A DNA stretch of 64,000 bases from positions 1,488,001 to 1,552,000 of the forward strand of contig NC_013061.1 in assembly GCF_000023825.1 (NCBI RefSeq), written 5' to 3'. Below the pieces are notes generated by a model. It saw only the letters and a program-made list of their open reading frames with translations. It did not search any database and was not told where the DNA came from. This DNA is from Pedobacter heparinus DSM 2366 (lineage in GTDB: Bacteria; Bacteroidota; Bacteroidia; Sphingobacteriales; Sphingobacteriaceae). A program made the translations under genes and the position numbers. The stretch's first letter is position 1. Each line of letters begins with the position of its first letter. Below are positions 32,048 to 64,000 of this stretch, in pieces.

Positions 32048-33568
32048 ATGAAAAAAGTATTCCTGTTTTTAACAATTGCATTGTGCTTTTCACAATGTAA
32101 AAAGGCTGGCAACACCCAGTCAGCTGAATCCGCCAACAGCCGTAAACAGTCTGTCACACAAACGCCGACATCACTCCAGGCAGCTGCAGCAACTGATTTT
32201 ACGGTTATTTTTATACCAGATACCCAGTATTATATGGATGAAGATAGTCATGGAGGCACTTACTCCATGTTTGTCAAACAAATCGATTGGATCATTGCCA
32301 ATAAAACCAGTCAGAACATCGTTTATGTGGGCGGGCTTGGAGATATTGTAGACAATGGGAATAATGTTTCGGAATGGAATGAAGCAAAAAACCAATACGC
32401 GAGGTTATCGGCTGCCGGAATCCCATATGGTTTAAGTGTGGGTAATCATGATCAATATCCAAACGGGACTCCCGGAGGCAATTCCACTGCAGAATACAAT
32501 GCAAGGTTTGGAAGAACAGAGTTCCATAACCGTGCCCATTATGGCGGCAATTATTTAGGCCCAAGCAGCAACAACAACGATAGCCATTATGATTTATTTA
32601 CAGCTGGAGGTATTGACTTCATCGTAATCCATGTAGAATACGATGCTACAGAAGCACATGGATTATCGCTGAACAACTGGGTCGACGAAATATTGGCTGC
32701 CCACTCGTCACGGAAAGCAATTGTTGTAACGCATTATGTCATCAACGGATCAGGTGCATTTAGTTCCCAGGCTTCATTGTTGTATAGTAAAATCAAATAC
32801 CGCCCAAACCTGTTCATGATGTATGGTGGCCATATCAGCGCAAGGGTATCCAATACGGCAACAACCAATGGCAATGTTACACGCTTATACCTGGCAGATT
32901 ACCAGGGAGAGCCGAATGGGGGAGAAGGATTTCTCCGTATACTCAAATTCAGGCCAGATCTCAATGTAGTAGAAACCAAGTCCTATTCCCCATATCTAAA
33001 CCAGTATCTTACAGCGGCAAATGAACAGTTTACCCATACCATGTTTACCTTTCCCTATGCTTATCCCGTTGCACTCAATGCTGTTGCAGATGCACATGTA
33101 AGAGACGGCGTTAATGGGAATGTAAACTATGGCACCGCCTCATTGATCGTACAGCGCGCCAGCCCCGCAGTAAACAGCTCTTATAAAACCTATCTTAAAT
33201 TTGACTTAAACAGCATTACCCAACCCATTAAAAGTGCAAAACTCCGGGTATTTGGCAATTCCAATGTAACAGGTACAGGAACCTGCACCATTAATTGTTA
33301 CGGCAATGGCGATGCATGGACCGAAACCGGGCTTACCTGGAACAATGCCCCTGCTGTAGTCAACGTCAAGCTCGCATCAACCTGGGTCAACAGCCTGAAC
33401 AAATACCATGAATTTGATGTAACAGGCTATGTACAGGAGCAGGCAGCCGGAGACAAAATCGTTTCCCTGCAATTGAATATGACCGCAAACCAGGACAAGC
33501 AATGTAATTTCTATAGTAAAGAAAATGCTGCAGCTGCCAACAGACCCCAGTTATTTATATATCATTAA
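32048..33568 (+). CDS. Metallophosphoesterase lipoprotein with C-terminal DNRLRE domain
   Basis: A 506-residue lipoprotein (lipobox 'CFSQC', Cys17). A calcineurin-like metallophosphoesterase domain runs ~50-320 with all metal motifs: 'PDTQYY' (Asp58), 'GDIVDNG' (Asp99), 'GNHD' (Asn132-His133), 'VTHY', and 'YGGHIS'. A C-terminal DNRLRE-type domain (~345-505; 'DAHVRDGVNGNVNYGTASLI', 'TWNNAPAV', 'YHEFDVTGYVQEQAAGD'), of the kind associated with carbohydrate binding (CBM96-like), follows. Together this suggests a surface enzyme removing phosphate from a phosphorylated glycan or a glycan-attached phosphodiester; the substrate is inferred. It follows the SusC/SusD/DUF5017 genes on the same strand. 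Confidence 0.88.
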   Translation: MKKVFLFLTIALCFSQCKKAGNTQSAESANSRKQSVTQTPTSLQAAAATDFTVIFIPDTQYYMDEDSHGGTYSMFVKQIDWIIANKTSQNIVYVGGLGDIVDNGNNVSEWNEAKNQYARLSAAGIPYGLSVGNHDQYPNGTPGGNSTAEYNARFGRTEFHNRAHYGGNYLGPSSNNNDSHYDLFTAGGIDFIVIHVEYDATEAHGLSLNNWVDEILAAHSSRKAIVVTHYVINGSGAFSSQASLLYSKIKYRPNLFMMYGGHISARVSNTATTNGNVTRLYLADYQGEPNGGEGFLRILKFRPDLNVVETKSYSPYLNQYLTAANEQFTHTMFTFPYAYPVALNAVADAHVRDGVNGNVNYGTASLIVQRASPAVNSSYKTYLKFDLNSITQPIKSAKLRVFGNSNVTGTGTCTINCYGNGDAWTETGLTWNNAPAVVNVKLASTWVNSLNKYHEFDVTGYVQEQAAGDKIVSLQLNMTANQDKQCNFYSKENAAAANRPQLFIYH

Positions 33569-40080: not shown

Positions 40081-42687
40081 ATGATCCGAAGGCTTTTGAT
40101 GTATCTGTTTTTATTGAGCAATGTATATACTTCTGCATCCGGGCAGCAACAGCCCAGGTTACAATGGTCCATAAATGACAGCTGGAAATATTTATCCCAG
40201 GGGGCAGATTTTGCACAGCGACCAAAAGCTGATGATTCCAAATGGCAATCGGTAAACATTCCCCACACCTGGAATGCAAAAGATCCTTTTGACGATGACG
40301 AGACTTCCAGGAGGGACATTAGCTGGTACCGGAAAAAGGTAATGCTTGACAAGCGGTTTCAGGGCAAAAAGATCTATCTGAATTTTGAAGGTGCCTACCA
40401 GGTGGCCGATGTATATGTAAATGGGGTATTTGCAGGGCAGCATAAAGGTGGTTATACCGCTTTTACTTTCGATATTACCCACTTGGTTAAGCTGGGCGAT
40501 ACCCCAACAGAAAACCTGATTGCTGTTCAGCTGAACAATGCCCAGGACAACTTTATACCGCCGCTATCTATTGGTTATGCTTCTTATGGAGGTATTTACC
40601 GTGATGCCTGGCTCATCAGTACCAATAAACTTCATTTTAAAATGTTGGACCATGGTTCTCCAGGCGTATTTATCAGCACCCCGAAGGTAGACAGCAGCCG
40701 TGCCTCGGTTAACATCAAAGGTATCGTAAGCAATGACGACAGTATAGAACGAAAGTTTGAAATGCTGCATGTTGTTTATGATGCCCGGCAAAAAGAAGTA
40801 GCCAGAGTAAGTAAAAATTACACTGTTGCTCCTGGCAAAGAACTGGTTTTTGCACTAGATGCCAGTGCACTTAAAAATCCTGAGTTATGGTCGCCCGATA
40901 AGCCTTATTTATATACTGTAAAAAGCCGGCTGATAGAAAGTGGCCAGGTGATTGATGAACTAAGCAACCCGCTGGGTTTCCGCTGGTTTAGCTTTGATGC
41001 CAATAAGGGTTTTAGTTTAAACGGTAAAAAACTGGTCTTAAAAGGCACCAACCGCCATCAGGACATGAAAGATCATGGTGATGCCCTATCGGCCGAAGAC
41101 CATTACCGTGATTTAAAGCTGATCAAAGATATGGGCTGTAATTTTTTAAGACTGGCCCATTATCCACAGGCACCTGAAGTATTGAAACTGGCCGATAAAC
41201 TGGGCATACTGATATGGGAAGAGATTCCGCTGGTAAATTACATGAACCCGGTGCCCGAGTTCCTGAAAAACTCAAAAACAATGATCAAAGAAATGATCAG
41301 ACAGAATTATAACCATCCATCTGTAATTATATGGGGTTCCATGAATGAAGTGTTGTTGTGGAGCGAGAAAGCGGAACGCATACAGGTACAGGAAAATGCA
41401 GCTTATGTAAATAAGGTGAAAATGTATGCGGTAAAGCTGGACAGCACAGTACGGGCAGAAGACCCATACCGGTACAGTACTATGGCGATGCATATGGGAG
41501 ACGATTATGATAAGTATGGGCTGTCGGACATTCCGCAGCTGGCCAGTTATAATATCTATAACGGTTGGTACAGCGGTAAATCGGAAGAATTTAAACCTAC
41601 GATAGATAACAAGCACCGGCAAAACCCCAGGCAGGTTTTGTTTATCAGTGAATATGGTGCGGAGGCAGATAACCGGGTCAATACCGAAAAACCGCAACGC
41701 TTTGATTTCACAGGACAGTACCAGCGCTTGTACCATGAATCTTATTTAAGCCAGATGAAGCAGATGCCTTACCTTGCCGGAACAGCGATATGGAACCAGT
41801 TCGATTTTTCACAGCCTAACGTGGGTGGGGTAAGCAACAACATGAACCAGAAAGGAATGGTAACCTGGGACAGAAAACCTAAAGATTCCTATTATCTTTA
41901 TAAGGCCAACTGGAATGCTGAACCGATGGTCTATATCGCCTCGCGCGACTGGACGCACAGGGCAGGCCTGTCCGGAAGCACAGCTACCATTGAAGTTTAT
42001 TCCAATCTGGACGAAGTTAGCCTGATGGTGAACGGTGTATCGTACGGAGCAAAGCAACCAGATCACGTAAAAAAAATGATATGGAAAGTGAAGTTAAATG
42101 AAGGTGTAAATGATATTGATGCCAGGGGTAAATCGGCTAAAGGCCTGGTGAACGATCACCTTAACTTGAATTATGATGTTTACACGGAAAACCTTAAAAA
42201 TACTGCACTGCCTTTCTCACAACTGGCAGTAAATGTGGGTTCTAATGCCCAATATCTGGACAATTCAGATCATATCTGGCTGGAAGACCGGCCTTATAAA
42301 ACGGGTAGTTTTGGTTATATTGGTGGAAGCCCTGCGATGCTTAACATTAAAACGGTAAAGAAGAATACCAACGACAGTCCGCTTTTCTATACTTACCAGG
42401 ATGACATCAAGGGCTATCGTTTTGATGTGCCTGACGGAAGGTATGAACTGGAGATGTGTTTTATTGAAAGCGACAAGATCCCGGCAAATGAACGGATTTT
42501 TGAAGTATCTGTAAATGGGGATAAGCTGATCGAAAACCTGGACCTAACGGCCCAATATGGTTTTGGTGTTGCCGTAAGGAAAAAATACAGGATCAGTGTA
42601 AGCAATGGCACAGGCTTACAGGTGATCTTTAAGGCCATAAAAGGCAAAGCTGTTTTAAGCGGGATTAAATTAAAGGCCGCATTGTAA
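40081..42687 (+). CDS. GH2 glycoside hydrolase with C-terminal malectin-like domain (beta-galactosidase/glucuronidase type)
   Basis: An 868-residue exported enzyme (signal peptide ending near 'SASGQQQ'). The jelly-roll sugar-binding domain (~25-180, 'VNIPHTWNAKDPF'), Ig-like domain (~185-300) and (beta/alpha)8 barrel ('GTNRHQDMKDHGDALS') follow in GH2 order. The acid/base is Glu423 in 'IIWGSMNE' and the nucleophile Glu524 in 'FISEYGAEAD'. A malectin-like domain (~715-865) ends the protein. The family covers beta-galactosidases, glucuronidases and mannosidases, so the exact sugar is uncertain. First gene of the plus-strand PUL arm. Confidence 0.9.
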   Translation: MIRRLLMYLFLLSNVYTSASGQQQPRLQWSINDSWKYLSQGADFAQRPKADDSKWQSVNIPHTWNAKDPFDDDETSRRDISWYRKKVMLDKRFQGKKIYLNFEGAYQVADVYVNGVFAGQHKGGYTAFTFDITHLVKLGDTPTENLIAVQLNNAQDNFIPPLSIGYASYGGIYRDAWLISTNKLHFKMLDHGSPGVFISTPKVDSSRASVNIKGIVSNDDSIERKFEMLHVVYDARQKEVARVSKNYTVAPGKELVFALDASALKNPELWSPDKPYLYTVKSRLIESGQVIDELSNPLGFRWFSFDANKGFSLNGKKLVLKGTNRHQDMKDHGDALSAEDHYRDLKLIKDMGCNFLRLAHYPQAPEVLKLADKLGILIWEEIPLVNYMNPVPEFLKNSKTMIKEMIRQNYNHPSVIIWGSMNEVLLWSEKAERIQVQENAAYVNKVKMYAVKLDSTVRAEDPYRYSTMAMHMGDDYDKYGLSDIPQLASYNIYNGWYSGKSEEFKPTIDNKHRQNPRQVLFISEYGAEADNRVNTEKPQRFDFTGQYQRLYHESYLSQMKQMPYLAGTAIWNQFDFSQPNVGGVSNNMNQKGMVTWDRKPKDSYYLYKANWNAEPMVYIASRDWTHRAGLSGSTATIEVYSNLDEVSLMVNGVSYGAKQPDHVKKMIWKVKLNEGVNDIDARGKSAKGLVNDHLNLNYDVYTENLKNTALPFSQLAVNVGSNAQYLDNSDHIWLEDRPYKTGSFGYIGGSPAMLNIKTVKKNTNDSPLFYTYQDDIKGYRFDVPDGRYELEMCFIESDKIPANERIFEVSVNGDKLIENLDLTAQYGFGVAVRKKYRISVSNGTGLQVIFKAIKGKAVLSGIKLKAAL

Positions 42688-42704
42688 TGCGTTAAAAGAA
42701 AAAG

Positions 42705-45700
42705 ATGAATATTAAAATATACCTGTTGCTGTTTATTTGTTTTGCTTGCCCCACTGTTAGGGCGCAGCAGCAAAATATTGCCTTACATAAAGAAGTTACC
42801 GTATCTTCTGAAGCTGAGGGGCATCCTGCCGGGAATATCGTAGATGGTAAGATATCCCGGTCATCGGTTTGGCGGGCAGCTGTTGCCAAAGCACCGCATA
42901 TTGTTGAAATCAATTTCAATACCTACTATAATGTGAATGAGCTGCGGATACATAGTGGTATTATGGACCAGGAAAAGAAGCCGGATGAAATGAGCCAGGC
43001 CGCTGGTTTCTGGTCGGTAAAGAACTTTAAGCTGCAATACTGGGATGATGCCAACTGGACAGATTTCCCGAAGGCTGAGGTACATGAAAACAGATTGACC
43101 ACTGTTGTGATGAAGTTTCAGCCAGCAGTAACTACTTTTAAGATCCGTTTGGTATGTGACGATGGAGAGCCCATCAGTATTATGGAAATAGAGGCCTTTG
43201 GCTCGGTTGCAGCCAACATGCCGGCACCACCAACCGGCAATGCCAATGTGCTGCAGCAAAAGAAATTAACAGGCCCCCAAAGCGCCAACATTAAAGTTAC
43301 ACCGAAAGTTGTGGGCAAAACCATGAAGTTTGTAGGCTATAACCAGGGCTATTATTTGCCAGGTACAAATGTCTCGGGCTGGATGGAATATGCCAATGTA
43401 AACAGTGTTCGCCTTTGGGCAGCTTTGAATGCTTTTGTACCAGAAAGAACCGTGCAGGTTGATCCGGGTATAACCTCGGTTGAAGTGTTTGACAAAAGAA
43501 AAAATGAACTGCGTACCAGCCCTGAGCACAATAAATACCTGAAATGGGATGAGCTGACACCACTATATGACCTTCCGGACTCATCCTCTACCAATGCCAT
43601 GGTATACAATTATGCTTTAAAAGAATTGAAACGTTTGGGCATTGCCGTGGTTTTGCAGGTGGGGAGTACCGATTTTAAAGATACCTGGGAAAATAAATGG
43701 AAGCAATGGCAGCGGTATTATGCCCTGGCTTACCATTCGGCAAAAACCGGGGATGTAAGCATGTTTGCGATGCAGAATGAACCAAATCACAGAAACGCCG
43801 GTCCTATGAAGCTGGACGACTGGATCATGGGGATGCAGATCACTTCCGATGCCATACACAGCGCCGTAGCCGACGTGAATAAAAAGTATGGCAAAAAGCT
43901 GGAGGCAAAATTTGTAGGGCCGGTAACTGCCGGTCAGAATACAGACTGGTGGGCGGCCGTAGCTAAAGCCATCCGTACAGATTACCATGGCAAACAGGTG
44001 GATAAGGACCTGATGGAGATTTTTTCTACCCATTCTTATAACTCGCCGGCCATAGGCTATGCGTCCAGGATCAGCAATATCCGTAAAATTATACAGGAAC
44101 ACCATCCAAAGGGAGCTTCACTGCCCATTGTATATACCGAAATCGGCCGCTGGATGAACGCTTACCTGATTGATAAGGAAGAGACCATGGACGATCCCTC
44201 ATTATTTACAGAATGGGCGGGCATTTATTCCAACAACATGAAAAATGCAGGTTATGGGATGTGGGCATTTAAGTTTGCCAATACAGCAAGCGGCCCTTAT
44301 GCAAGGGGTATCAAATCGGGACACCATTACATCTGGCAGGGCAGGCGTATTGTGGAAGATGCCTATCAAAACCTGGCGCTGCGGAAGTCGGTTAAAACCA
44401 GCAACTCAGCAAGCAACTCAGCAGTAGTTACCGATGGTGACAAATCCGATGCCTCGGCCTGGGTATCAGCTACCGAGGGTGAAAAATGGATAGAGATAGA
44501 TCTTGGAACTGTACATACCCTAGGCAGTTCGGTAGTCTACACCGGTTCTGCAGGAGGGATATATACTGCGCCAGACCGCATAAAAAACTTTAAACTACAA
44601 TATTTTAGTCAGGGACAATGGCTGGACATTCCCGGTACAGCAGAAAAAGAAAGCAGGTATGCTCAGATTTTCAGTATTTTTAAACAGCCGGTAAATACCA
44701 GCAAAATCCGTTTTATAAGCAAGGATAAAGGCAACCTGAAAGTAAGGGAAATCAAAGTATTTGCCAAAGGTGATGGTCCTTCCGATAAAGCTGATTTTAA
44801 TGTTTCAGGTATTCAGCGTACCGGAGAGGTGGTACGCCTGTTTGCAAAAGGCTTTAAAGATGAGCGTAACCTGCTGCAAACCAAAGTTTCTGTAAACGAT
44901 ACTGACCTGGATACCTATACGTCTTATGATGCGCAAACCGGCAATTATTATATATGGCTGGTTCAGCGCGGTACCTTTAGTTATAAGCTGTCTGTAGACC
45001 TTTCTGCATTAAACCTTGCCGCAGGTACTCCGGTTACTGCAGAGACCGTAAACGCTTTAAATTATGGTGAAGTAACCCATAACATCAGTCTGCCAGCCAG
45101 CCAGACATTTAATTTTGAACTGGCACCGCAAAGTGTGGTACTACTGACTATCCCATCGGCTAAATTGGTTAAGACTACCGTATATCCGGTTGCGGATGCC
45201 AGTGTAGCGGGTGGTAAAAATGCATTGCTCAGTAATGGTACAGCAAAGCAGCTTGCGGTGCAGCTTGACGCTGCTGTGCCGGAAAATAACCAGGTCGCTT
45301 ACCTGTACTTTAACCTCTCCAAAAATAACCTGGCCACTGCAAAAAAAATCATTGTGGGACTAAGTGGGGCAACTGATCAGAATAAAAGACCATATCGTTT
45401 GCATGTTTACGGAATTCCGGGGCCAAAATGGGAGCAGCAACAATTAAACTGGTCAAATGCGCCATTGCTGGACCAGAAAGAAGCCCTTATTAAGGGTGTG
45501 GGGGAAAAAGCCTTTGTTGCTGGCGAGCTGGCTTTTAACGGAAAGGAGCAATACCATCAGCTGGACATTACCGGCATGGTCAAAAAACATGTTAAAGAGG
45601 GCCTTACACTCGTACTGATACGGGAAACCAGGCAACTAGGTGATGATGAGGATAAGGGCAGGAAAGTAAGAATCAATTCGATGGAGTCGGTAAACAAGCC

Positions 45701-45734
45701 CAAACTGGAAATCTGGCATGAAACCTCAAAATAA
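42705..45734 (+). CDS. Multidomain clan GH-A hydrolase candidate (F5/8C - barrel - F5/8C - DNRLRE)
   Basis: A 1009-residue exported protein. After the signal peptide comes an F5/8 type C (CBM32-like) domain (~25-167, 'NIALHKEVTVSSEAEGHPA'). A (beta/alpha)8-like catalytic region (~200-550) follows with 'FAMQNEPNH' (Glu359, likely acid/base) and 'IVYTEIGRW' (Glu479, likely nucleophile), spaced as in clan GH-A. Then come a second F5/8C domain (~556-690, 'WIEIDLGTVHTLGSSVVYTG'), a beta domain and a C-terminal DNRLRE domain (~835-1005). The barrel resembles GH5/GH39/GH79-type folds, but I cannot assign it to a named family. It is in operon 17 bp after GH2. Confidence 0.78.
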   Translation: MNIKIYLLLFICFACPTVRAQQQNIALHKEVTVSSEAEGHPAGNIVDGKISRSSVWRAAVAKAPHIVEINFNTYYNVNELRIHSGIMDQEKKPDEMSQAAGFWSVKNFKLQYWDDANWTDFPKAEVHENRLTTVVMKFQPAVTTFKIRLVCDDGEPISIMEIEAFGSVAANMPAPPTGNANVLQQKKLTGPQSANIKVTPKVVGKTMKFVGYNQGYYLPGTNVSGWMEYANVNSVRLWAALNAFVPERTVQVDPGITSVEVFDKRKNELRTSPEHNKYLKWDELTPLYDLPDSSSTNAMVYNYALKELKRLGIAVVLQVGSTDFKDTWENKWKQWQRYYALAYHSAKTGDVSMFAMQNEPNHRNAGPMKLDDWIMGMQITSDAIHSAVADVNKKYGKKLEAKFVGPVTAGQNTDWWAAVAKAIRTDYHGKQVDKDLMEIFSTHSYNSPAIGYASRISNIRKIIQEHHPKGASLPIVYTEIGRWMNAYLIDKEETMDDPSLFTEWAGIYSNNMKNAGYGMWAFKFANTASGPYARGIKSGHHYIWQGRRIVEDAYQNLALRKSVKTSNSASNSAVVTDGDKSDASAWVSATEGEKWIEIDLGTVHTLGSSVVYTGSAGGIYTAPDRIKNFKLQYFSQGQWLDIPGTAEKESRYAQIFSIFKQPVNTSKIRFISKDKGNLKVREIKVFAKGDGPSDKADFNVSGIQRTGEVVRLFAKGFKDERNLLQTKVSVNDTDLDTYTSYDAQTGNYYIWLVQRGTFSYKLSVDLSALNLAAGTPVTAETVNALNYGEVTHNISLPASQTFNFELAPQSVVLLTIPSAKLVKTTVYPVADASVAGGKNALLSNGTAKQLAVQLDAAVPENNQVAYLYFNLSKNNLATAKKIIVGLSGATDQNKRPYRLHVYGIPGPKWEQQQLNWSNAPLLDQKEALIKGVGEKAFVAGELAFNGKEQYHQLDITGMVKKHVKEGLTLVLIRETRQLGDDEDKGRKVRINSMESVNKPKLEIWHETSK

Positions 45735-45766
45735 CTTAAAGCATATACCAACAACCGAATATAACC

Positions 45767-48706
45767 ATGATGAAAAGAGCCCTTTTACTTAGTTTTTTAT
45801 TTCTTATCCAGATCAGTTTTTCAACTGCGCAGTCTGCCTATCAGCTTACACCTTTTACCGGGGTAGATTATGTAAGGGTAGTGGTAAGCAGTGCATTTAA
45901 AACTGCTCCGGACAATACTTTTAAACTGCTCATCAGCTCGCCTAAAGATGGTAAGGTACTTTGGCAGGGGCCTGTTAAGGCTACAACAGCTGTAAATGAA
46001 GGCAATAACCACCTGGCCTTTACTGTAAGCAATTTAAAGCCGGTTTTATGGACACCCCATAACCCTTTTTTATATAATGTTACTTTGCAGCAATACAGTG
46101 GCAAAACCTTAAAAGCTGAGTTGAAAGAACGTGCAGGTTTCAGAAGTTTTGAGCGTCGCAAAGGCAACCTGTATCTGAACGGCAAGCCCATCTTTTTGAG
46201 GGGTATAGCCATTAATCCACCGGGCAGGGGAATTCCTGATGAACTGGAAACCAGCAGGGCTTTTGCGCTCGATTACGTGAAGTATATGAAAAGCATCAAT
46301 GTCAACATCATCCGTATCCCGGATGAAGAAGCCTGGTTTGATGTCTGCGATGAATTGGGTATGATGGTGTTTGGCGGAAACTACAGCGGTAAGGTCGCAG
46401 CCGGCGAAAAGGTGAAAGACCAGGAAAAAGTGGGCGATGAAACCGACGGTGGTTTTCCTAAAGACCATGACAAAGGTGTAGCCTGGTACGAAAATGAAAA
46501 ATTGGGTGCCATTGCGCACCATCCGAGTTTAATGGTGTATGCCATGACCAATGAAACACCTTTTAAGGGCAGCAGGGCTGATGCCTGGGAGAAATTTTTG
46601 GATTATGCTTTTGGCAAACTTAAAAAATGGGATGAAACCCGTGTATACATTGCCAATGCCGGCTATGGCTATGGTAAAACAGGTGATATCCTGGACATTC
46701 ACCGGTACTGGGGCTGGTATTACAGTTCACCCTTTACCTTTTTGCACATCCGCGACCATGCCAAAATTGTCCCTTATCCTAAAAAGGAAGATATGCCCAT
46801 TACGTTTACAGAATGCGTGGGCAATTATACAGGGCCCGATGGACGGTACAACCTGACCCCTCAGCATAAAAACCCAAGTTCGCAGCTGGCCTGGACAGGG
46901 CATGAGCGACAGGATCTGCAGGCGCAGCTAGCCGATGAACACCAGAGCTTTACTTTAAGGCAGGCAACAGAGTCTTTCCGACAGCTCCGGTCTGTAAATC
47001 CAGACCTGAGCGGGGTATTCCCTTTCACTATCCTTTTTTACAACTGGAATACCATTGAAAAGTTTGCCGATATGAAACCCAAGCCGGTTACCGATCAGGT
47101 AAAGATCAGCTATCAGCCGGTATTGCTGAGCTGGGAATGCTGGACACCTAATGTGTATGCCGGTGCAGAAATTAACCCTGTTGCACACATCAGCAATGAC
47201 GACAATGATTTTAAAGACCTTAAAAATGCAAAGCTGGTTTACCAGATCAGGGACAAAGCCTATTCCATTGTATTTTCTGATAGTGTGAACATCGGGGATA
47301 TCCCTTATTACAGTACGGCTAAAAAGAAACTCAGCATCCGGCTTCCTAAAGACCTTAATTCTGGAAAATATGAATTGACCGGTAAAATTATCTCTGCAGG
47401 CAAACAGGTATCCTACAATTATTATAAGCTTTTTATAGCCGACGATAATTTTACAAAAGCTGTGGTACCAATTGAGAGCGTTGAGAGCAGTGTATTGCTG
47501 TATGATAAAGAAGGAAAGACCAGGAAATCTTTAGCCGCTTTGGGACTGAAATTTAACAGCATCGGTTCCTTTGGCAAACTGCCTGAAAAGGGGGTGCTGA
47601 TCATCGGCGAAAATGCCGCCGATCAGGAACTGGCAGGTAATGCAACAGCCATCCGGAATTTTATAAATGGCGGGGGCAGGGTAGTTGCTTTGCGGCAGGA
47701 CAGCCTGCGGATGATCAACTTAAACCAGCTGGCCATCCATAAACTGGTAAACAGGAATGTAGATATTGATGATCCGGTATATCCTGTTTCCTCAAAATCG
47801 CCCCGCAATGGGTATTACGTTAATGCAGAAAGACCGAACCATCCTTTATTTGCAGGCATTACCCGTGAAAACATGCGCATCTGGTCTGATTACACCAATT
47901 GGGACGAAACAAAGGCCGGGCTGCCTGCCATCAAGCCCGTTACGGATGGTTTTGTTTTGGAGAACAAAGAGGATGTGGCGAATACGGCTATCCTGGCCAA
48001 TTACAGTTCTGGTTTACAGGGTATTGCCATTGCCGAACAGTTTATGGGCAATGGAAGCCTGCTGCTTTGTGGCCTGGACATTTCAAACCGGACCTCAGTA
48101 GATCCGGTAGCGGCAAGGATAATGCTCAATATGGTCAGTTATGCTGCTTCGGCTACTGGTCATGAACAACATCAGCTGATCAGTAGTCCGATTGTATGGG
48201 GAGAGTATGAAACGGAAAAAGGGATCGTGGTGGATGCTTACAGTGGGTTTCTGGTAAATGCAACCCCGCGTGTACCACCAAATTACCTGGGTAAAGGTAT
48301 TGTGGTGACCAAAGAAGGGTACCAGCTGGCAGGCGGCAACCGTTCGGGCTTCAATACCCGTCCGGGTATACAATATGTGGCCAACGGCCGCCGTCCTTTC
48401 GGGCCGTATGTACAAAGCTTTGGCGGACAGCCCCTGCCAGATAAAGACAGTACCGAAGGGGTTGGGAGTTTCTGGTGCCGCATTCCGCAAGGGCAGAACC
48501 TGGCTACATCTGTAGCATGGAACCCGGCCAAAGAACCAGTACAGCTTAAAATAAAAGTGAACGACCTGGCAGAAGTGAATAAAACCATTCCAGCAGGTGC
48601 TAAAATAGCCATTGAAACACCTGTAAATGCTGAGGTGGTAAAGATGACCTATTCGGGTGACCGCCGTGTGGTTATCCTTGAAACTGCATTTAGTAAAAAG
48701 AATTAA
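45767..48706 (+). CDS. GH2-like barrel enzyme fused to a glutamine-amidotransferase-like domain
   Basis: A 979-residue exported protein (signal ends near 'STAQSAY'). The N-terminus holds only an Ig-like domain (~25-125); the GH2 sugar-binding jelly roll is absent. The barrel (~130-460) has 'GNLYLNGKPIFLRGIAINPP', 'LMVYAMTNETP' (Glu263, probable acid/base) and 'ITFTECVGNY' (Glu349, probable nucleophile). Later a class-I GATase-like domain (~600-800, 'VLIIGENAADQELAGNATAI', 'FINGGGRVVALRQDS'), of the kind seen in GH42 trimerisation domains, is followed by a beta-sandwich. The substrate is unknown; a beta-linked uronic or galactosyl residue is a guess from context. It has the same 18-nt leader as the GH88 gene. 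Confidence 0.75.
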   Translation: MMKRALLLSFLFLIQISFSTAQSAYQLTPFTGVDYVRVVVSSAFKTAPDNTFKLLISSPKDGKVLWQGPVKATTAVNEGNNHLAFTVSNLKPVLWTPHNPFLYNVTLQQYSGKTLKAELKERAGFRSFERRKGNLYLNGKPIFLRGIAINPPGRGIPDELETSRAFALDYVKYMKSINVNIIRIPDEEAWFDVCDELGMMVFGGNYSGKVAAGEKVKDQEKVGDETDGGFPKDHDKGVAWYENEKLGAIAHHPSLMVYAMTNETPFKGSRADAWEKFLDYAFGKLKKWDETRVYIANAGYGYGKTGDILDIHRYWGWYYSSPFTFLHIRDHAKIVPYPKKEDMPITFTECVGNYTGPDGRYNLTPQHKNPSSQLAWTGHERQDLQAQLADEHQSFTLRQATESFRQLRSVNPDLSGVFPFTILFYNWNTIEKFADMKPKPVTDQVKISYQPVLLSWECWTPNVYAGAEINPVAHISNDDNDFKDLKNAKLVYQIRDKAYSIVFSDSVNIGDIPYYSTAKKKLSIRLPKDLNSGKYELTGKIISAGKQVSYNYYKLFIADDNFTKAVVPIESVESSVLLYDKEGKTRKSLAALGLKFNSIGSFGKLPEKGVLIIGENAADQELAGNATAIRNFINGGGRVVALRQDSLRMINLNQLAIHKLVNRNVDIDDPVYPVSSKSPRNGYYVNAERPNHPLFAGITRENMRIWSDYTNWDETKAGLPAIKPVTDGFVLENKEDVANTAILANYSSGLQGIAIAEQFMGNGSLLLCGLDISNRTSVDPVAARIMLNMVSYAASATGHEQHQLISSPIVWGEYETEKGIVVDAYSGFLVNATPRVPPNYLGKGIVVTKEGYQLAGGNRSGFNTRPGIQYVANGRRPFGPYVQSFGGQPLPDKDSTEGVGSFWCRIPQGQNLATSVAWNPAKEPVQLKIKVNDLAEVNKTIPAGAKIAIETPVNAEVVKMTYSGDRRVVILETAFSKKN

Positions 48707-48718
48707 TCCAATATCACA

Positions 48719-49954
48719 ATGTATAAAAAATTATTAATCGTATTAATTTGTGCCAGCCCGCAATGGTTATGGGCACAGAAAAATGCTGCTGTACCTGACG
48801 GACTGGCGCAGCGTGCCTACGAGGTTACGATACTTACGCGTATTGCCGATCCTGTACTGATTGCCTTAAGCAAAAACCAGCTTAAAAGTACCATGCCTGT
48901 AGAAGCCAAAGTGGCTAAAGACCGGGTGTACAGTACTTACCTGGAAGCTTTTGGCCGCCTGCTTGCAGGCATGTCACCCTGGCTTGAGCTTGGGCCCGAT
49001 AATACAGAAGAAGGTAAACTGCGCAAAAAATACATTGACCTGGCAGTTGCCTGCATTAAAAATGCAACAGACCCGAAAGCAGCCGATTTTCTGAATTTCA
49101 AAGAGGGCCGTCAGCCCCTGGTAGATGCTGCATTTTTTGCGCAAGCCCTTATCCGCGCACCTAAACAGTTATGGGCTAATCTGGACTCGCAAACACGTAA
49201 AAACGTATTGGATGCTTTAAGGTCGAGCCGGGTAATCCAACCTTCTTATACCAACTGGCTAATGTTTAGCGCTACTGTAGAAGCTGCCTTGCAGAAATAC
49301 GACAATTCGGGTGATAAAATGCGCCTGGATTATGCCATTAAAGAACACCTGCTCTGGTATAAAGGAGATGGGGTATATGGCGATGGCCCTAATTTTCACT
49401 GGGATTACTACAACAGTTTTGTGATCCAGCCCATGCTGGTGGATGTACTTAAAGTCCTTAAGGAAGCCAAGCAGGATCCCAAAAACTATTATGAGCTGAT
49501 CCTGGGCCGCGCACAGCGCTGGGCAGCCATACAGGAACGCCTGATCTCGCCTGAAGGTACTTATCCGCCGATAGGCAGGTCATTAACCTACCGTTTTGGC
49601 GCCTTTCAGGCACTTGCCCAGATGTCGCTCATGAAAACCTTACCAAAACCGCTAACACCCGGGCAGGTACGCTATGCACTTTATACGGTGATTAAAAAAC
49701 AGATTGAGGCGCCGGGAACATTCGATAAGGATGGCTGGTTAAGAATAGGACTTTACGGGCACCAGCCTAACCTGGGCGAGAACTACATCTCTACAGGCAG
49801 CCTTTATTTATGTTCACAGGGATTGCTTGCCCTGGGTTTGCCACCAGCTGATCCTTACTGGCAGGATGCCAATGCCGACTGGACCGCCCGCAAAGCGTGG
49901 AATGGCGAAATGATAGAAATAGACCATGCCTATACTGATCCAAAAGAAAATTAA
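48719..49954 (+). CDS. DUF2264-family protein (GH154-type, putative uronidase)
   Basis: A 411-residue exported protein with a signal peptide ending near 'WLWAQKNA'. The (alpha/alpha)-barrel signature 'YLEAFGRLLAGMSPWLELGP', 'PLVDAAFFAQALIRAPKQLW', 'TNWLMFSATVEAALQKY' and 'GDGPNFHWDYYNSFVIQPML' is that of DUF2264. As I recall, CAZy now groups this family as GH154 with uronidase activity; this is from memory. The acidic residues in 'YGDGPNFHWDYYN' are plausible catalytic positions. It lies 12 bp after the GH2-like gene and 13 bp before GH88, firmly inside the operon. Confidence 0.82.
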   Translation: MYKKLLIVLICASPQWLWAQKNAAVPDGLAQRAYEVTILTRIADPVLIALSKNQLKSTMPVEAKVAKDRVYSTYLEAFGRLLAGMSPWLELGPDNTEEGKLRKKYIDLAVACIKNATDPKAADFLNFKEGRQPLVDAAFFAQALIRAPKQLWANLDSQTRKNVLDALRSSRVIQPSYTNWLMFSATVEAALQKYDNSGDKMRLDYAIKEHLLWYKGDGVYGDGPNFHWDYYNSFVIQPMLVDVLKVLKEAKQDPKNYYELILGRAQRWAAIQERLISPEGTYPPIGRSLTYRFGAFQALAQMSLMKTLPKPLTPGQVRYALYTVIKKQIEAPGTFDKDGWLRIGLYGHQPNLGENYISTGSLYLCSQGLLALGLPPADPYWQDANADWTARKAWNGEMIEIDHAYTDPKEN

Positions 49955-49967
49955 ACCGAATATAACC

Positions 49968-51170
49968 ATGAAGACCACTAACAGCATTTTAATAACCGCA
50001 CTTATTTTGGGTACAACTGCCGGTACCGGCATTGCCCAGAAATTAAACTATAAACCTAAGGCAGACCTGGTAAAACTAATCGACAGGAACCTGAAAGATG
50101 GTGCAGCCCAGTATAAAGTATTGATGAAAAATGTACCTGCCGATAGTTTACCTGAAACCTTTGAAAATAACAGATCAAAAAGTACTACGCCCAAAAGCTG
50201 GGTAAGTGGTTTTTACCCGGGTACTTTATTTTACCTGTATGAAGGTACAAAGGACAAGGCATTGTATGAGGCCGGTCTGGCCAAACTACCGATTATGGAA
50301 CCTATAAAATACATCGATTCGCATGACATAGGATTTATGATGTATTGCAGTTTTGGCAATGCCAATCACATTAAACCCAGCGCTGCATACAAGGACATCC
50401 TGCTAACCAGTGCCCAAAGCTTAAGTAAACGCTTTAACCCTATAGTAGGCTGCACCATGTCATGGGGATCAAAGCCGGGAGAATTCAGGGTGATCATCGA
50501 CAATATGATGAACCTGGAACTGCTCATGTGGGCCACAAAAGTGAGCGGCGATTCTTCTTATGCAAAAATTGCCATCAGTCACGCCAATACCACCATGAAA
50601 AATCATTTCAGGCCAGATTATAGTTCTTATCACCTTGTAAACTACAATCCGGCAACAGGAGGTATCAATAAAAAGCAAACTGTTCAGGGCTATGCTGATG
50701 AGTCGGCCTGGGCAAGAGGGCAGGGCTGGGGTTTATATGGGTATACCATGATGTATCGTGAAACCAAAGACCCTAAGTATTTGGAACAGGCCAAACACAT
50801 TGCTGAATTTATTTTGAACAATCCAAACTTACCAAAAGATAAAGTGCCTTATTGGGATTTTAGTGCACCTGATATCCCTAATGCTTATCGCGATGCTTCT
50901 GCAGGTGCCATTTATGCTTCAGCCTTAATTGAACTTGCCGGTTATGTGGATGCGGTAGCGGCAAAAAAATACCTTGATGTAGCGGAAACCATTATCCGTA
51001 CCCTATCCAGCGATAGGTTTAAAGCTGCTTACCGAGAAAACGGGGGCTTTATTTTAAAGCACAGTGTGGGGCACCTGCCTAAGCCCGCCATGATAGATGT
51101 GCCGCTCACCTATGCCGATTATTATTTTGTAGAGGCCATGCTGCGCTATAAAGACCTGGGTAAAAAATGA
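49968..51170 (+). CDS. GH88 unsaturated glucuronyl hydrolase
   Basis: A 400-residue exported (alpha/alpha)6-barrel enzyme (signal peptide ending near 'GTGIAQKL'). The landmarks are 'KSWVSGFYPGTLFYLYEGT', 'SHDIGFMMY' (Asp120) and 'VIIDNMMNLELLMWA' (Asp178), the two catalytic aspartates of GH88, then 'GYADESAWARGQGWGLYGY'. It hydrates the 4,5 double bond of unsaturated glucuronic acid at the end of lyase products, releasing it. ATG 49968 is chosen; an in-frame ATG at 49926 lies inside the DUF2264 gene and would disrupt the signal peptide. The stop overlaps the next start (ATGA). Confidence 0.94.
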   Translation: MKTTNSILITALILGTTAGTGIAQKLNYKPKADLVKLIDRNLKDGAAQYKVLMKNVPADSLPETFENNRSKSTTPKSWVSGFYPGTLFYLYEGTKDKALYEAGLAKLPIMEPIKYIDSHDIGFMMYCSFGNANHIKPSAAYKDILLTSAQSLSKRFNPIVGCTMSWGSKPGEFRVIIDNMMNLELLMWATKVSGDSSYAKIAISHANTTMKNHFRPDYSSYHLVNYNPATGGINKKQTVQGYADESAWARGQGWGLYGYTMMYRETKDPKYLEQAKHIAEFILNNPNLPKDKVPYWDFSAPDIPNAYRDASAGAIYASALIELAGYVDAVAAKKYLDVAETIIRTLSSDRFKAAYRENGGFILKHSVGHLPKPAMIDVPLTYADYYFVEAMLRYKDLGKK

Positions 51171-52738
51171 GAGCCCTGGTTTTAAATCTATGCACCGTGT
51201 TGCTGGGGTTTTTCCTGTGTCTTTCTGTTCAGCCGGTAAAGGCACAGGTTAAACGTCAGATCCATGCCGACCTGAAATCGGTTGCCGGAAATAAAAGCAC
51301 AGTATTTAATGAATGTATTGGTGCGGGAAGGGCAAACGAGGGCCTGCGGGCCGACTGGCAGCAGCAGCTAGCCATGATCCAGAAAGACGTACATTTTAAA
51401 TACATCCGTTTTCACGGCCTTTTGCACGATGACATGCGGATTTATAGCCTGGATAAAACCGGTAAGCCGGTTTATAATTTTCAGTATGTAGACCGGTTAT
51501 ACGATTTTTTACTGAGCATCAACATCCGGCCTTTTGTCGAATTTGGCTTTATGCCGCCCGACATGGCATCGGGTACCAAAACCATTTTCTGGTGGAAAGC
51601 GAATGTGAGCAAACCCAAATCCTATACACAATGGGATACGCTGATTACCAAATTGGTGAAACATTGGCAGCAGCGTTATGGAGAAGAGGAAGTGAAAAAA
51701 TGGTATTTTGAAGTATGGAACGAGCCTGACCTCAAGGGATTTTTTGATGGAACCCAGGCTGATTATTTCGAATTATATGCTCATACCGTTAAAGCAGTTA
51801 AAAGTGTTTCCAGGGCTTACCGTGTGGGTGGCCCTGCTACCTCGGCTACCAAGTGGATCGCTGAGTTTTTATCCTATTGTGAAAACAATAGATTACCTGT
51901 CGATTTTGTGAGTACACATGATTATGGTACAACTTCGGTACTGGACGAGATGGGAACCAAAAAACAACAACTGAAAAGCATCCGTGACACCATTGCCATT
52001 GATGTAAAGCGGGTAAGAGCCACCATTAATACATCGGCCTATAAAAAAGCAGAGCTGCACTTTACAGAATGGAACACTTCTCCATCGTCCAGAGACCCGA
52101 TCCACGATACTTATCAAAACGCGGCGTATATTTTACACGTATTAAAAAAGGCTGCTGCCAATAGCAATTCCATGTCGTACTGGACCTTTACTGATATTTT
52201 TGAGGAAGCAGGCCCGGGCCCTACACCTTTTCATGGGGGGTTTGGACTGATCAATCTCCAGGATATCAAAAAACCGGGATATCATGCTTATCATTTCATG
52301 AAGGAGCTGGGTAATACAGAGCTAAAAAATGAGGATGAAAGCTCGTATGTCTGTAAATCTGAGCAAGGGGTACAGGCATTGATCTGGAATTACACCCATC
52401 CCTTAAATGGATACAGCTTTAACCAGGATTACTTTAATAAAGTACAGCCACCTGCAACCAACCATGATGTCCGGTTCAGTGTGGCCAATCTGAGGAATAG
52501 TACTTACCTGCTGGAAGAGTACAGGGTAGGTTACGGGCAAAATGATCCCTACACTGCTTACCTGAAAATGGGAAAGCCAGAACAATTAAGTAGGGCAGAA
52601 GTTAGCCGGTTAAAGCAGGTGTCGTCCGGAGCTGCATTCCGTAAAAGCACCATAACAGTAAGCGGTGGGAAATTTGAACAGCTTATCCGGCTTTCTGACA
52701 ATGAAATCGTATTCCTGAAGCTGATCAGACACCTTTAA
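51167..52738 (+). CDS. GH39 glycoside hydrolase (beta-xylosidase or alpha-L-iduronidase type)
   Basis: A 523-residue exported enzyme (signal ends near 'PVKAQVKRQ'). The (beta/alpha)8 barrel has 'YIRFHGLLHDDMRIY', acid/base Glu186 in 'YFEVWNEPDL', and nucleophile Glu301 in 'ELHFTEWNTS'; a C-terminal beta-sandwich follows ('VQALIWNYTHPL'). GH39 covers beta-xylosidases and alpha-L-iduronidases. In a uronate PUL the second is worth considering, but the active-site pocket cannot be resolved from sequence. It overlaps GH88 by 4 bp. Confidence 0.9.
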   Translation: MRALVLNLCTVLLGFFLCLSVQPVKAQVKRQIHADLKSVAGNKSTVFNECIGAGRANEGLRADWQQQLAMIQKDVHFKYIRFHGLLHDDMRIYSLDKTGKPVYNFQYVDRLYDFLLSINIRPFVEFGFMPPDMASGTKTIFWWKANVSKPKSYTQWDTLITKLVKHWQQRYGEEEVKKWYFEVWNEPDLKGFFDGTQADYFELYAHTVKAVKSVSRAYRVGGPATSATKWIAEFLSYCENNRLPVDFVSTHDYGTTSVLDEMGTKKQQLKSIRDTIAIDVKRVRATINTSAYKKAELHFTEWNTSPSSRDPIHDTYQNAAYILHVLKKAAANSNSMSYWTFTDIFEEAGPGPTPFHGGFGLINLQDIKKPGYHAYHFMKELGNTELKNEDESSYVCKSEQGVQALIWNYTHPLNGYSFNQDYFNKVQPPATNHDVRFSVANLRNSTYLLEEYRVGYGQNDPYTAYLKMGKPEQLSRAEVSRLKQVSSGAAFRKSTITVSGGKFEQLIRLSDNEIVFLKLIRHL

Positions 52739-62329: not shown

Positions 62330-63835
62330 ATGAATCTAATAGCTGCGCATTCATCAGGCATCAAAACCCGACTCATCATGAGCATTATGATTATGGGTAT
62401 GCTGCTTAATTCCTGTAAAAAGGATAAATTTAACGTGCCACAAAATGTGGGTACCATCAGGTTTGCGGCCAATGCCTATACCATTGAGAACAATACCGTA
62501 GATCCTTTAACCATTGTCTTACCCCTATCCTTACCACTTGAAGCAGATGCTACGGCACTGATTACAGTAGATAACCAGAGTACTATAGCTGCAGACCAGT
62601 ATACTACCACACCAGCCATACCGGTTGAAGGCTTAACCCTTAACCTGCCTAAAGGTGCTACCCAGATTTCCTTTCAGCTGAGTTCTTTAAACAATTTTGA
62701 AGGAGAAAAAACGCTGGTATTAAAGCTGAGCTCTGCTACCGGAGGACTCAGTGTAGCCAATATCAACTCAACGGCCAGTATTACCATTAAAGGAAACCCA
62801 ATTGTAATTCCGGAGATCAGAACTTCAGAACCCGGACTCGCTTTTGGCAGCGTGGTTACCGGTACAATTTCTGATTCAAAATCGTACGTGCTCAACGCTA
62901 CGAAATTAACTTCAGACGTGCTGATCAGTGCAAGTGCAAACTTCCAGGTATCATTGGATGACAATACTTTCAGCAGCACTTTAACCATTCCTTTTGCTAC
63001 AGCCAACGCTACACCTGTAACTATTTATGCCAGATTTTTGGCCACTACAGGTATAAACCAGACAGTAACCGGAACCATTTCACATCGTTCGGGTACTGTT
63101 CCTGATGCGGTTGTAAATGTTAGCGGAGTAGAATTTGGAGTGGCCATACCTGGAGTGCTGGTGCATAAAGAAGATTTTAACTATGGTACGGTCGCAAATT
63201 CCATTACAGCGGTATCGGGTGGTAAATGGACTGCCTACTCTGCAAGTGCAACAAGGCCGGTTCAATATTTGTCACCTGGCTTAACCTATACCGGATATGC
63301 AGGGTCGGGTATCGGAGGAGCGTTGGTAATGCAAAACAATGGCTCGTCTTCTGAAGACGTTTCAATGAATTTTCCTGCGCAATCAAGCGGAGTAGTTTAC
63401 AGCGCACAATTGATGAATTTCGCCTCAGGGCCAACTACTGCCGATTTCTTCTATTCTTTTGGAGATGGGGCAGCAGGAGCAACGCCAGCTTATTTTAACA
63501 GGATCTATGCTAAAGCAAACGGCAGTAAAATGTCATTGGGCTTAGGCCGGAATTCTACAACTGTAACCTATGCTGCGGCAGATCTGGATTATGGGGTTAC
63601 TTATCTGGTGGTAAGCAAGTACGAATTCGCTACCAATAATTCAACCTTGTACATCCTAAGTGGAGTAATACCAACCATAGAGCCAGCTACACCAAGTGCA
63701 GTATCTAATGTATCTGGTGCCGATCCTACTGCTTTAACCAGGATAGTTGTTAGACAAAATACAGGTGTTCCGTTAAAGGTGACCATTGATGGCATCAGGA
63801 TAGCAACATCATGGAAAGAAGCAGTTGGACTTTAA
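62330..63835 (+). CDS. Surface lipoprotein with Calx-beta/Ig-like domains and a lectin-like C-terminus
   Basis: A 501-residue lipoprotein (lipobox 'LLNSC', Cys29, followed by Lys-Lys-Asp-Lys). The start at 62330 gives a long n-region; ATG 62378 (MSIMIMGMLLNSC) is an alternative. Domains seen are a Calx-beta-like module (~35-150, 'IAADQYTTTPAIPVEGLTLN'), a beta-sandwich (~160-265, 'GLAFGSVVTGTISDSKSYVL') and a concanavalin/LamG-like region (~275-500, 'YGTVANSITAVSGGKWTAYS'). Its position right after SusC/SusD makes it a candidate surface glycan-binding protein. No catalytic residues are evident. Confidence 0.78.
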   Translation: MNLIAAHSSGIKTRLIMSIMIMGMLLNSCKKDKFNVPQNVGTIRFAANAYTIENNTVDPLTIVLPLSLPLEADATALITVDNQSTIAADQYTTTPAIPVEGLTLNLPKGATQISFQLSSLNNFEGEKTLVLKLSSATGGLSVANINSTASITIKGNPIVIPEIRTSEPGLAFGSVVTGTISDSKSYVLNATKLTSDVLISASANFQVSLDDNTFSSTLTIPFATANATPVTIYARFLATTGINQTVTGTISHRSGTVPDAVVNVSGVEFGVAIPGVLVHKEDFNYGTVANSITAVSGGKWTAYSASATRPVQYLSPGLTYTGYAGSGIGGALVMQNNGSSSEDVSMNFPAQSSGVVYSAQLMNFASGPTTADFFYSFGDGAAGATPAYFNRIYAKANGSKMSLGLGRNSTTVTYAAADLDYGVTYLVVSKYEFATNNSTLYILSGVIPTIEPATPSAVSNVSGADPTALTRIVVRQNTGVPLKVTIDGIRIATSWKEAVGL

Positions 63836-63847
63836 AAAATTAAATAT

Positions 63848-64000
63848 ATGATCACATTAAAAAGAAATATTCCCGGATTGCTGCTGGTTCTTGTACTGGC
63901 CATGGGCTGTGTAAAGAACGCCCCTCAGCCTGTTGTACCTGTAATGCCTGAATTGCCCCCTGTTACCGGGGGCAACGGATCTGCAATGGTTACGGTAGAC
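63848..64000 (+). CDS. Lipoprotein, N-terminal part (3' truncated by window)
   Basis: The first 51 codons of a lipoprotein gene, 12 bp after the previous stop. The signal peptide is 'NIPGLLLVLVLAMGC' with the lipidated Cys near residue 22, then a Pro-rich linker ('NAPQPVVPVMPELPPVTGG'). The rest of the gene is outside the window. It belongs to the same operon and is probably another surface or periplasmic PUL component; the catalytic type is unknown. Confidence 0.8.
   Translation, partial: MITLKRNIPGLLLVLVLAMGCVKNAPQPVVPVMPELPPVTGGNGSAMVTVD

Follow-up and report, generated by a model that had tools for sequence, protein, structure and literature searches.

A multimodular protein of Pedobacter heparinus whose barrel probably forms its own family in clan GH-A and may be nearest in fold to GH39

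The window analyzed here is a stretch of 64,000 nucleotides of Pedobacter heparinus DSM 2366 (contig NC_013061.1, forward strand, positions 1,488,001 to 1,552,000), and coordinates refer to it unless another locus is named. An open reading frame (ORF) on its plus strand, 42705 to 45734, starts with ATG and encodes a protein of 1009 amino acids, the focal protein of this study. An earlier reading of the same DNA, made from the letters only and called the sequence-only reading below, had noticed in it a barrel resembling those of glycoside hydrolase (GH) clan GH-A that could not be placed in a named family. We favor, with moderate confidence, the view that the protein is a probably secreted, multimodular and probably retaining glycosidase, and that its barrel is a family of its own within clan GH-A, probably nearest in fold to GH39 and set apart from known families by comparisons with Pfam, NCBIfam, and the PDB. 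The features of the gene are as follows.

42705..45734, plus strand: whole gene, multidomain putative glycoside hydrolase, aligned end to end with 12 full-length relatives
42705..42764, plus strand: probable signal peptide (residues 1-20), a hydrophobic N-terminus judged by eye
42765..43208, plus strand: N-terminal F5/8C domain (about residues 21-168), one of two PF00754 stretches
43263..44369, plus strand: triosephosphate isomerase (TIM) barrel from beta1 to beta8 (residues 187-555, about 370 residues), predicted clan GH-A topology, from the AlphaFold2 model and fold matches
43779..43781, plus strand: E359 in QNEPNH, candidate acid/base directly after beta4 in the AlphaFold2 model, invariant in 21/21 barrels
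44139..44141, plus strand: E479 in YTEIGRW, candidate nucleophile at the end of beta7 in the AlphaFold2 model, invariant in 21/21 barrels
44370..44774, plus strand: second F5/8C domain (residues 556-690; Pfam 569-674), possibly inserted between beta8 and alpha8
44805..44858, plus strand: candidate barrel alpha8, residues 701-718 (SGIQRTGEVVRLFAKGFK), 16/18 columns invariant
44778..45170, plus strand: the alpha8 candidate together with a putative C-terminal beta-sandwich (residues 692-822), proposed by pattern
45174..45713, plus strand: CBM96/DNRLRE domain (residues 824-1003), from Pfam and NCBIfam

The accessory domains agree with the sequence-only reading, which had described flanking F5/8C domains and a closing DNRLRE domain. 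Pfam reports the F5/8 type C domain (PF00754) in two stretches (E 1.2e-19; 71.1 bits, compared to a gathering score of 28.2), of which 569-674 is the best, and overlapping sub-threshold Pfam matches lie at residues 18-101 and 24-83 in the N-terminal F5/8C region. CBM96 is matched at 824-1003 (E 2.8e-16; 60.2 bits, gathering score 26) and the NCBIfam DNRLRE domain at 831-1004 (E 1.1e-13), and in a PDB sequence search this part resembles 7vbo, an alginate lyase chain (E 4.6e-10). The same module is also found in a metallophosphoesterase encoded at 32048-33568 of the window, which carries its own CBM96 domain. For the putative beta-sandwich, scans of 13 members yielded chance-level Pfam matches only, and the rows from PDB sequences were weak, the best one being unrelated. 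Residues 1-23 are poorly conserved among the relatives, with one invariant column of 23; the protein is probably secreted.

Relatives were sought by a scan of genome contigs with exact short patterns from three sequences, so that distant relatives could escape, and 14 of 91 candidate stretches were confirmed, with barrel identities of 63-82%. Their hosts are Desertivirga, Chitinophaga, Pedobacter, Persicitalea, Aestuariibaculum, Bacteroides oleiciplenus, B. clarus, Bacteroides sp. 51, and three uncultured Bacteroidota assemblies. The 13 full-length rows (the window and 12 loci) have one common layout without loss of any domain, the domains of the relatives being judged from the alignment, while the other two loci are cut by a contig end (L012) or shortened at the N-terminus (L018). 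Because relatives are encoded at 14 loci and the full-length alignment shows no domain loss, the layout is not a matter of chance. The domain order is indeed unusual, as had been remarked before, but it is not peculiar to the P. heparinus gene, as it is common to all 13 aligned full-length rows. An artefact or a pseudogene was ruled out by the open frame and the end-to-end alignment with the 12 full-length relatives. In samples of whole genomes, which overlap and of which all but the 13-genome sample count the genome of the window itself as a positive, relatives were found in 2/59, 2/395, 11/281, 0/13, and 2/395 genomes. The further relatives from the 281-genome sample were aligned over the barrel only, and the barrel alignment has 21 distinct rows; two of the 13 matches of that sample (L029 and L030, E 2.6e-5 and 4.4e-5, both partial) were dropped, since their ORFs were read by eye as BamA-like outer-membrane proteins. 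In a viral scan 144 stretches matched a pattern and none was confirmed, and a search of plasmid proteins gave no match at E 1e-5.

The barrel was modeled by AlphaFold2 as residues 187-558 from the 21 aligned sequences (model number plus 186 gives the protein number). The model has a predicted template modeling score (pTM) of 0.77 and a mean predicted local distance difference test score (pLDDT) of 69.8, and 128 of its 372 residues reach a pLDDT of at least 90. Eight strands follow each other in order, at model residues 24-27, 48-54, 128-134, 167-171, 216-223, 253-258, 289-293, and 330-333, and the best 50 rows of a VIA-align fold comparison were all read as glycoside hydrolases. By this model, the focal barrel is a TIM barrel with the topology of clan GH-A. 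Structure prediction with fold comparison had been suggested as a check on the sequence-only reading, and AlphaFold2, Foldseek, and VIA-align all point to a clan GH-A barrel. The barrel proposed then at residues 200-550 was borne out (187-555), but its last helix may lie further downstream, beyond the second F5/8C domain.

In the model, the two glutamates that had been recognized in clan GH-A contexts are at the positions where the clan carries its catalytic pair. QNEPNH comprises residues 357-362 and YTEIGRW residues 477-483. N358 and E359 are model residues 172-173, straight after strand 4, and E479 is model residue 293, the last of strand 7, so that the model shows an Asn-Glu pair after beta4 and a Glu at the end of beta7. 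N358, E359, H443, Y445, E479, and W520 are conserved in 21/21 barrels and R236 in 20/20 rows that cover it. The model places R236 on strand 2, H443 and Y445 at strand 6, and W520 after strand 8, and we take these residues to complete the usual clan GH-A set. The barrel is the most conserved domain, with a mean pairwise identity of 0.68. Going by the model, E359 and E479 would probably act in retaining catalysis. It could be argued that the barrel is catalytically dead and that the protein, with its three binding modules, is a scaffold for holding glycans, as all three accessory domains are of a binding type and no activity is known. However, both glutamates and the nearby clan residues are invariant wherever they are covered, and no other domain is as conserved as the barrel, which makes this explanation very improbable.

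The searches of family libraries agree with the claim that the barrel lies outside the named families. For the focal protein no Pfam match from about residue 170 to residue 555 exceeded its threshold, and a PDB sequence search with the single focal sequence (E up to 1) retrieved the accessory domains only. When 15 members were scanned singly, scattered unrelated families were the only matches, with best E values of 0.018 in Pfam and 0.0083 in NCBIfam, and a 15-row profile compared to PDB sequences (E up to 10) had one match, a nitroreductase at E 0.31. The GH39 model PF01229 had no match in the 15 members at E up to 10, a setting at which the HMMER filters still drop most weak matches. Over the whole genome of the window, PF01229 matched at a single place, in the canonical GH39 gene of this operon, and left the focal gene without a match. 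GH5 (PF00150) and GH30 (PF02055) were absent from the Pfam matches of the 15 members; in the genome of the window PF00150 matched three times, always away from the focal gene, and PF02055 not at all. GH51 and GH79 were likewise absent from the Pfam and NCBIfam matches of the 15 members, the presence of these models in the two libraries being unchecked. A strong full-length match with the same domain order, which the sequence-only reading had named as the result that would speak against it, thus did not appear in Pfam, NCBIfam, or the PDB sequences.

The barrel might nevertheless belong to an existing CAZy family, or to a non-classified set, that is represented neither by a Pfam or NCBIfam model nor by a solved structure, and would then be new to the searched libraries only. 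These were Pfam, NCBIfam, and PDB sequences and not the dbCAN or CAZy models, and relatives sit in named genomes, e.g., those of Bacteroides clarus and B. oleiciplenus. Yet the nitroreductase was the one PDB sequence found by the 15-row profile, and in the literature searched, which lacks most subscription journals, no title or abstract described the focal protein. We consider this explanation quite unlikely.

The family nearest to the barrel is best discussed from fold and profile comparisons together. The first ten VIA-align rows comprise a Croceicoccus glucosidase and then nine GH39 chains, with Z scores of 18.1-20.0 (18.1-19.9 for GH39 in rows 2-10), root-mean-square deviations of 3.4-4.8, 263-293 aligned residues, and 11-14% identity; 1w91 and 6yyh were counted as GH39 chains partly on the basis of the PDB search of the operon GH39. 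GH51, a bacterial heparanase, GH5, and GH1 come next at Z 17-18, and families such as GH86 and GH50 are not among the best 50 rows, which does not exclude them. In Foldseek the first rows are GH5 enzymes, GH79 beta-glucuronidase (from Acidobacterium, at ranks 3-4), and alpha-L-iduronidase. For comparisons of profiles, alignments were built from 19 of 23 GH39 loci, 23 of 30 GH5 loci, and 30 of 30 GH30 loci of the genomes of relatives. The 21-row barrel profile gave probabilities of 44.5% with GH39, 8.4% with GH5, and 1.5% with GH30, and the GH39 alignment registers NEP on NEP and STHSYN on STHAYG. Sixteen other families of the window stayed at or below 1.4% and three reversed alignments at or below 0.8%, although the former are weak decoys, five of the 16 being single sequences (MetPhos_CBM96, GH109, GH88_372, X501, FecR) and the others having 2 to 8 members.

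Several observations weigh against the favored reading. In the barrel model, pLDDT falls below 50 in five stretches (model residues 1-36, which contain strand 1, and 174-179, 260-264, 294-317, and 333-372), the loops just behind both E359 and E479 included, so that the model is weak in places that matter for the active-site rim. A full-length AlphaFold2 model, from 3 sequences, had a mean pLDDT of 49.4 and was discarded. GH51 and GH1 are within about 2.5 Z of the best VIA-align row. Foldseek TM-scores by query are modest, 0.32-0.52 over 50 rows, and with GH5 at the top GH39 is not clearly the nearest family. A 13-row barrel alignment lowered GH39 to 30.5% and raised GH5 to 20.3%, and when GH39 was split into two subgroups, the barrel scored 0.4% and 1.2% with them, and no more than 4.4% in spliced versions. 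With an effective number of sequences (Neff) of 1.8, the focal profile has little depth, which by itself lowers such probabilities, and the profile method did not see even the GH2 proteins of the window as clan relatives (0.1% and 0.2%).

These results bear on a further alternative, namely, that the barrel is a far-diverged subfamily of GH39, with the same fold, the same catalytic machinery, the same C-terminal sandwich, and an inserted F5/8C domain. The nine GH39 chains in VIA-align rows 2-10 are in its favor, as is the first rank of GH39 among the compared profiles, with which the NEP motif coincides, and at a Neff of 1.8 a modest probability is compatible with a GH39 subfamily. However, PF01229 found neither the 15 members nor the focal gene in the genome search, the two GH39 subgroups scored 0.4% and 1.2%, and the 44.5% between the barrel and GH39 is well below the 91.8% between GH39 and GH5, an uneven comparison, because the latter two profiles are both deeper than the focal one. 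The lowest pairwise identity among the 21 barrels is 57%, and no relative more distant than this was found in the overlapping samples of 59, 395, 281, 13, and 395 genomes, so that no bridge to a known family appeared. We read the profiles as pointing to common clan ancestry with GH39 as the nearest family, and as leaving membership in GH39 undecided either way; taking all evidence together, a GH39 subfamily seems unlikely to us, and a separate clan GH-A family remains the preferred reading.

An unusual trait of the protein may be the position of its second F5/8C domain. Past strand 8 the barrel model shows, at low confidence, a helix of six residues and otherwise just short strands, and no clear alpha8. 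Downstream of the F5/8C domain, residues 701-718 are invariant in 16 of 18 columns of the 13 full-length rows. Only 15 of 992 windows of 18 residues reach 16 invariant columns, thirteen of them close to E479 (478-508) and the other two at 700-718; those starting at 700 and 701 are the only ones outside the barrel, and windows around 487-506 reach 17/18. The second F5/8C domain, in contrast, has at most 9/18 invariant columns in any window and 29 of 135 overall. A segment as conserved as the strand-7 region that follows a far less conserved module suggests that residues 701-718 return to the barrel as its alpha8, and that the second F5/8C domain may be inserted in the loop from beta8 to alpha8, on the same face of the barrel as the active site. 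The sandwich alone reached 4.2% with GH39, over 19 columns. Just one profile alignment, a low-threshold one (4.2%), puts residues 701-718 onto the GIxKP stretch of GH39, which presumably leads into alpha8 of that family. The same alignment, however, sets YWVFTD of GH39 on residues about 542-550, some 25 residues behind strand 8 of the model, and due to this misplacement it is poor support for an insertion. Also unfavorable is the end-to-end comparison with GH39 after the F5/8C domain had been cut out, which was unstable (about 31% versus 0.0%): this global splicing test gave 30.6% and 31.5%, and then 0.0% after a small change of column handling, and was discarded. A splicing control consisting of the barrel and the second F5/8C domain reached 30.5% with GH5.

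The gene lies in the middle of a cluster that fits the uronate operon described by the sequence-only reading. All genes from 40081 to 52738 are on one strand and are separated by at most 32 bp or overlap, which suggests that they form one operon, and the focal gene is flanked by GH2 genes with gaps of 17 bp upstream and 32 bp downstream. Its neighbors are the following.

40081..42687, plus strand: GH2, best NCBIfam match BetGlucuronLacZ4 (below cut-off), malectin C-terminus; NCBIfam and Pfam; probably same operon
45767..48706, plus strand: second GH2, Glyco_hydro_2_N not detected; NCBIfam and Pfam; probably same operon
48719..49954, plus strand: DUF2264 protein, homologue of beta-D-glucuronate dehydratase; Pfam E 1.8e-119
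49926..51170, plus strand: GH88-like, candidate unsaturated uronyl hydrolase; Pfam E 1.5e-9
51167..52738, plus strand: canonical GH39, nearest solved structures beta-xylosidases; Pfam E 4.4e-115, 8i0j E 5.1e-118

The DUF2264 protein matches 9o4u (E 7.5e-97), 8oi4 (E 1.2e-96), and 9nwf (E 5.5e-96) in the PDB; 9o4u is a solved beta-D-glucuronic acid dehydratase, and 8oi4, which is matched equally, was deposited as a beta-galactosidase. According to a published study, the 9o4u dehydratase primes saturated glucuronic acid (GlcA) at the non-reducing end for GH88, the whole family, formerly GH154, is argued to consist of dehydratases, and for Bacteroides caccae a pair of dehydratase and GH88 is proposed (PMC12269599). 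A single frame of 801 residues in Bacteroides sp. 51 (L016:13866-16271) combines the GH88 and DUF2264 domains, where the window has two overlapping genes at 48719-51170, and this fusion fits the proposed pathway of dehydratase and unsaturated uronyl hydrolase. The operon GH39 was also matched by the NCBIfam model of alpha-1,4-L-rhamnosidase, at 42 bits versus a cut-off of 850. A GH39 gene in the genome of one relative (L052 and L055; G009:C1:3262565-3264045) was matched in two pieces, the second of which contains one in-frame TAA.

Past the window there are genes for an AraC regulator, two GH115 proteins, a PfkB kinase, UxuA, and a SASA esterase. A Glyco_hydro_cc gene has its first 153 bases inside the window (L116:848-2335, from window position 63848 to past the window end). 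Its product of 495 residues exceeds the Glyco_hydro_cc cut-off of 21 bits by a narrow margin (21.8 bits), found no PDB sequence at E 0.1, and is another weakly placed barrel in the locus; a relationship to the focal protein was rejected, the best BLASTP match having 23 bits and E 0.015 over 25 residues. A protein of 501 residues encoded after the last SusD gene (62330-63835) has no Pfam match at E 0.001 and may bind glycans at the cell surface.

At least one homologue of the GH2, SASA, DUF2264, GH88, or GH39 genes, read by eye, is present at 12 of the 14 loci of relatives, which differ in length from 4 to 21 kb. The second GH2 is found at seven loci, SASA at seven, GH88 at five, DUF2264 at four, the first GH2 (at least 50% identity) at four, and GH39 at two, some of these matches being merely 34-40% identical; L011 and L013 have none of these neighbors, a partial GH2 match of 36% in L013 being left uncounted. 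A sulfatase gene is within 10 kb in L006, L013, and L016. Directly after the focal gene, Desertivirga (L006:12381-14315) and a Chitinophagales metagenome-assembled genome (L009:7323-9290) encode a DUF4838 protein. The gene neighbors in the window and at the loci of relatives indicate that the target glycan probably bears GlcA as well as acetyl groups, and possibly also xylose, alpha-GlcA and, in some hosts, sulfate.

Under the favored reading of a separate clan GH-A family, a glycosidic bond would be broken in a double-displacement reaction with E359 as acid/base and E479 as nucleophile, and the two F5/8C modules and the CBM96 module would hold the glycan. The enzyme would trim or open an acetylated, glucuronate-bearing heteroglycan, which is our guess at the substrate, and terminal beta-GlcA would then be removed by the neighboring glucuronate dehydratase homologue together with GH88. 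We go one step further only tentatively and regard it as possible that the barrel founds a new family at the level of CAZy, in which an F5/8C domain spliced between beta8 and alpha8 shapes the rim of the active site, and which brings a new specificity for a glucuronate-bearing heteroglycan to environmental and human gut Bacteroidota. Should the barrel prove to be a family of its own in clan GH-A, a founding set of 21 distinct barrels, including members from Bacteroides clarus and B. oleiciplenus, is at hand with domain limits and candidate catalytic residues, ready for cloning and assay. A binding module within a barrel would, if true, be an unusual way of shaping an active-site rim, and the operon, with its glucuronate dehydratase homologue beside GH88, supplies a pathway that can be tested.

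The GH2 proteins of the operon are among the closest known systems. GH2 enzymes are clan GH-A barrels, and these two share a cluster with the focal gene, yet their profile similarity to it is undetectable (0.1% and 0.2%). GH51 and GH79, the clan GH-A families of arabinofuranosidases and of beta-glucuronidase and heparanase, have the same fold class, and heparanase and GH51 chains reach Z scores near 18; they differ from the focal barrel in their identity of 10-14% in the listed Foldseek and VIA-align rows and by their absence from the library matches of the 15 members. The greatest likeness is probably to GH39, the family of beta-xylosidases and alpha-L-iduronidase, a TIM barrel which has its acid/base after beta4 and its nucleophile at beta7, where the model puts E359 and E479. 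In contrast to GH39, the focal protein has no match to the GH39 hidden Markov model, shares 11-14% identity with the GH39 chains, and carries an F5/8C domain between the barrel and the putative sandwich as well as a CBM96 tail.

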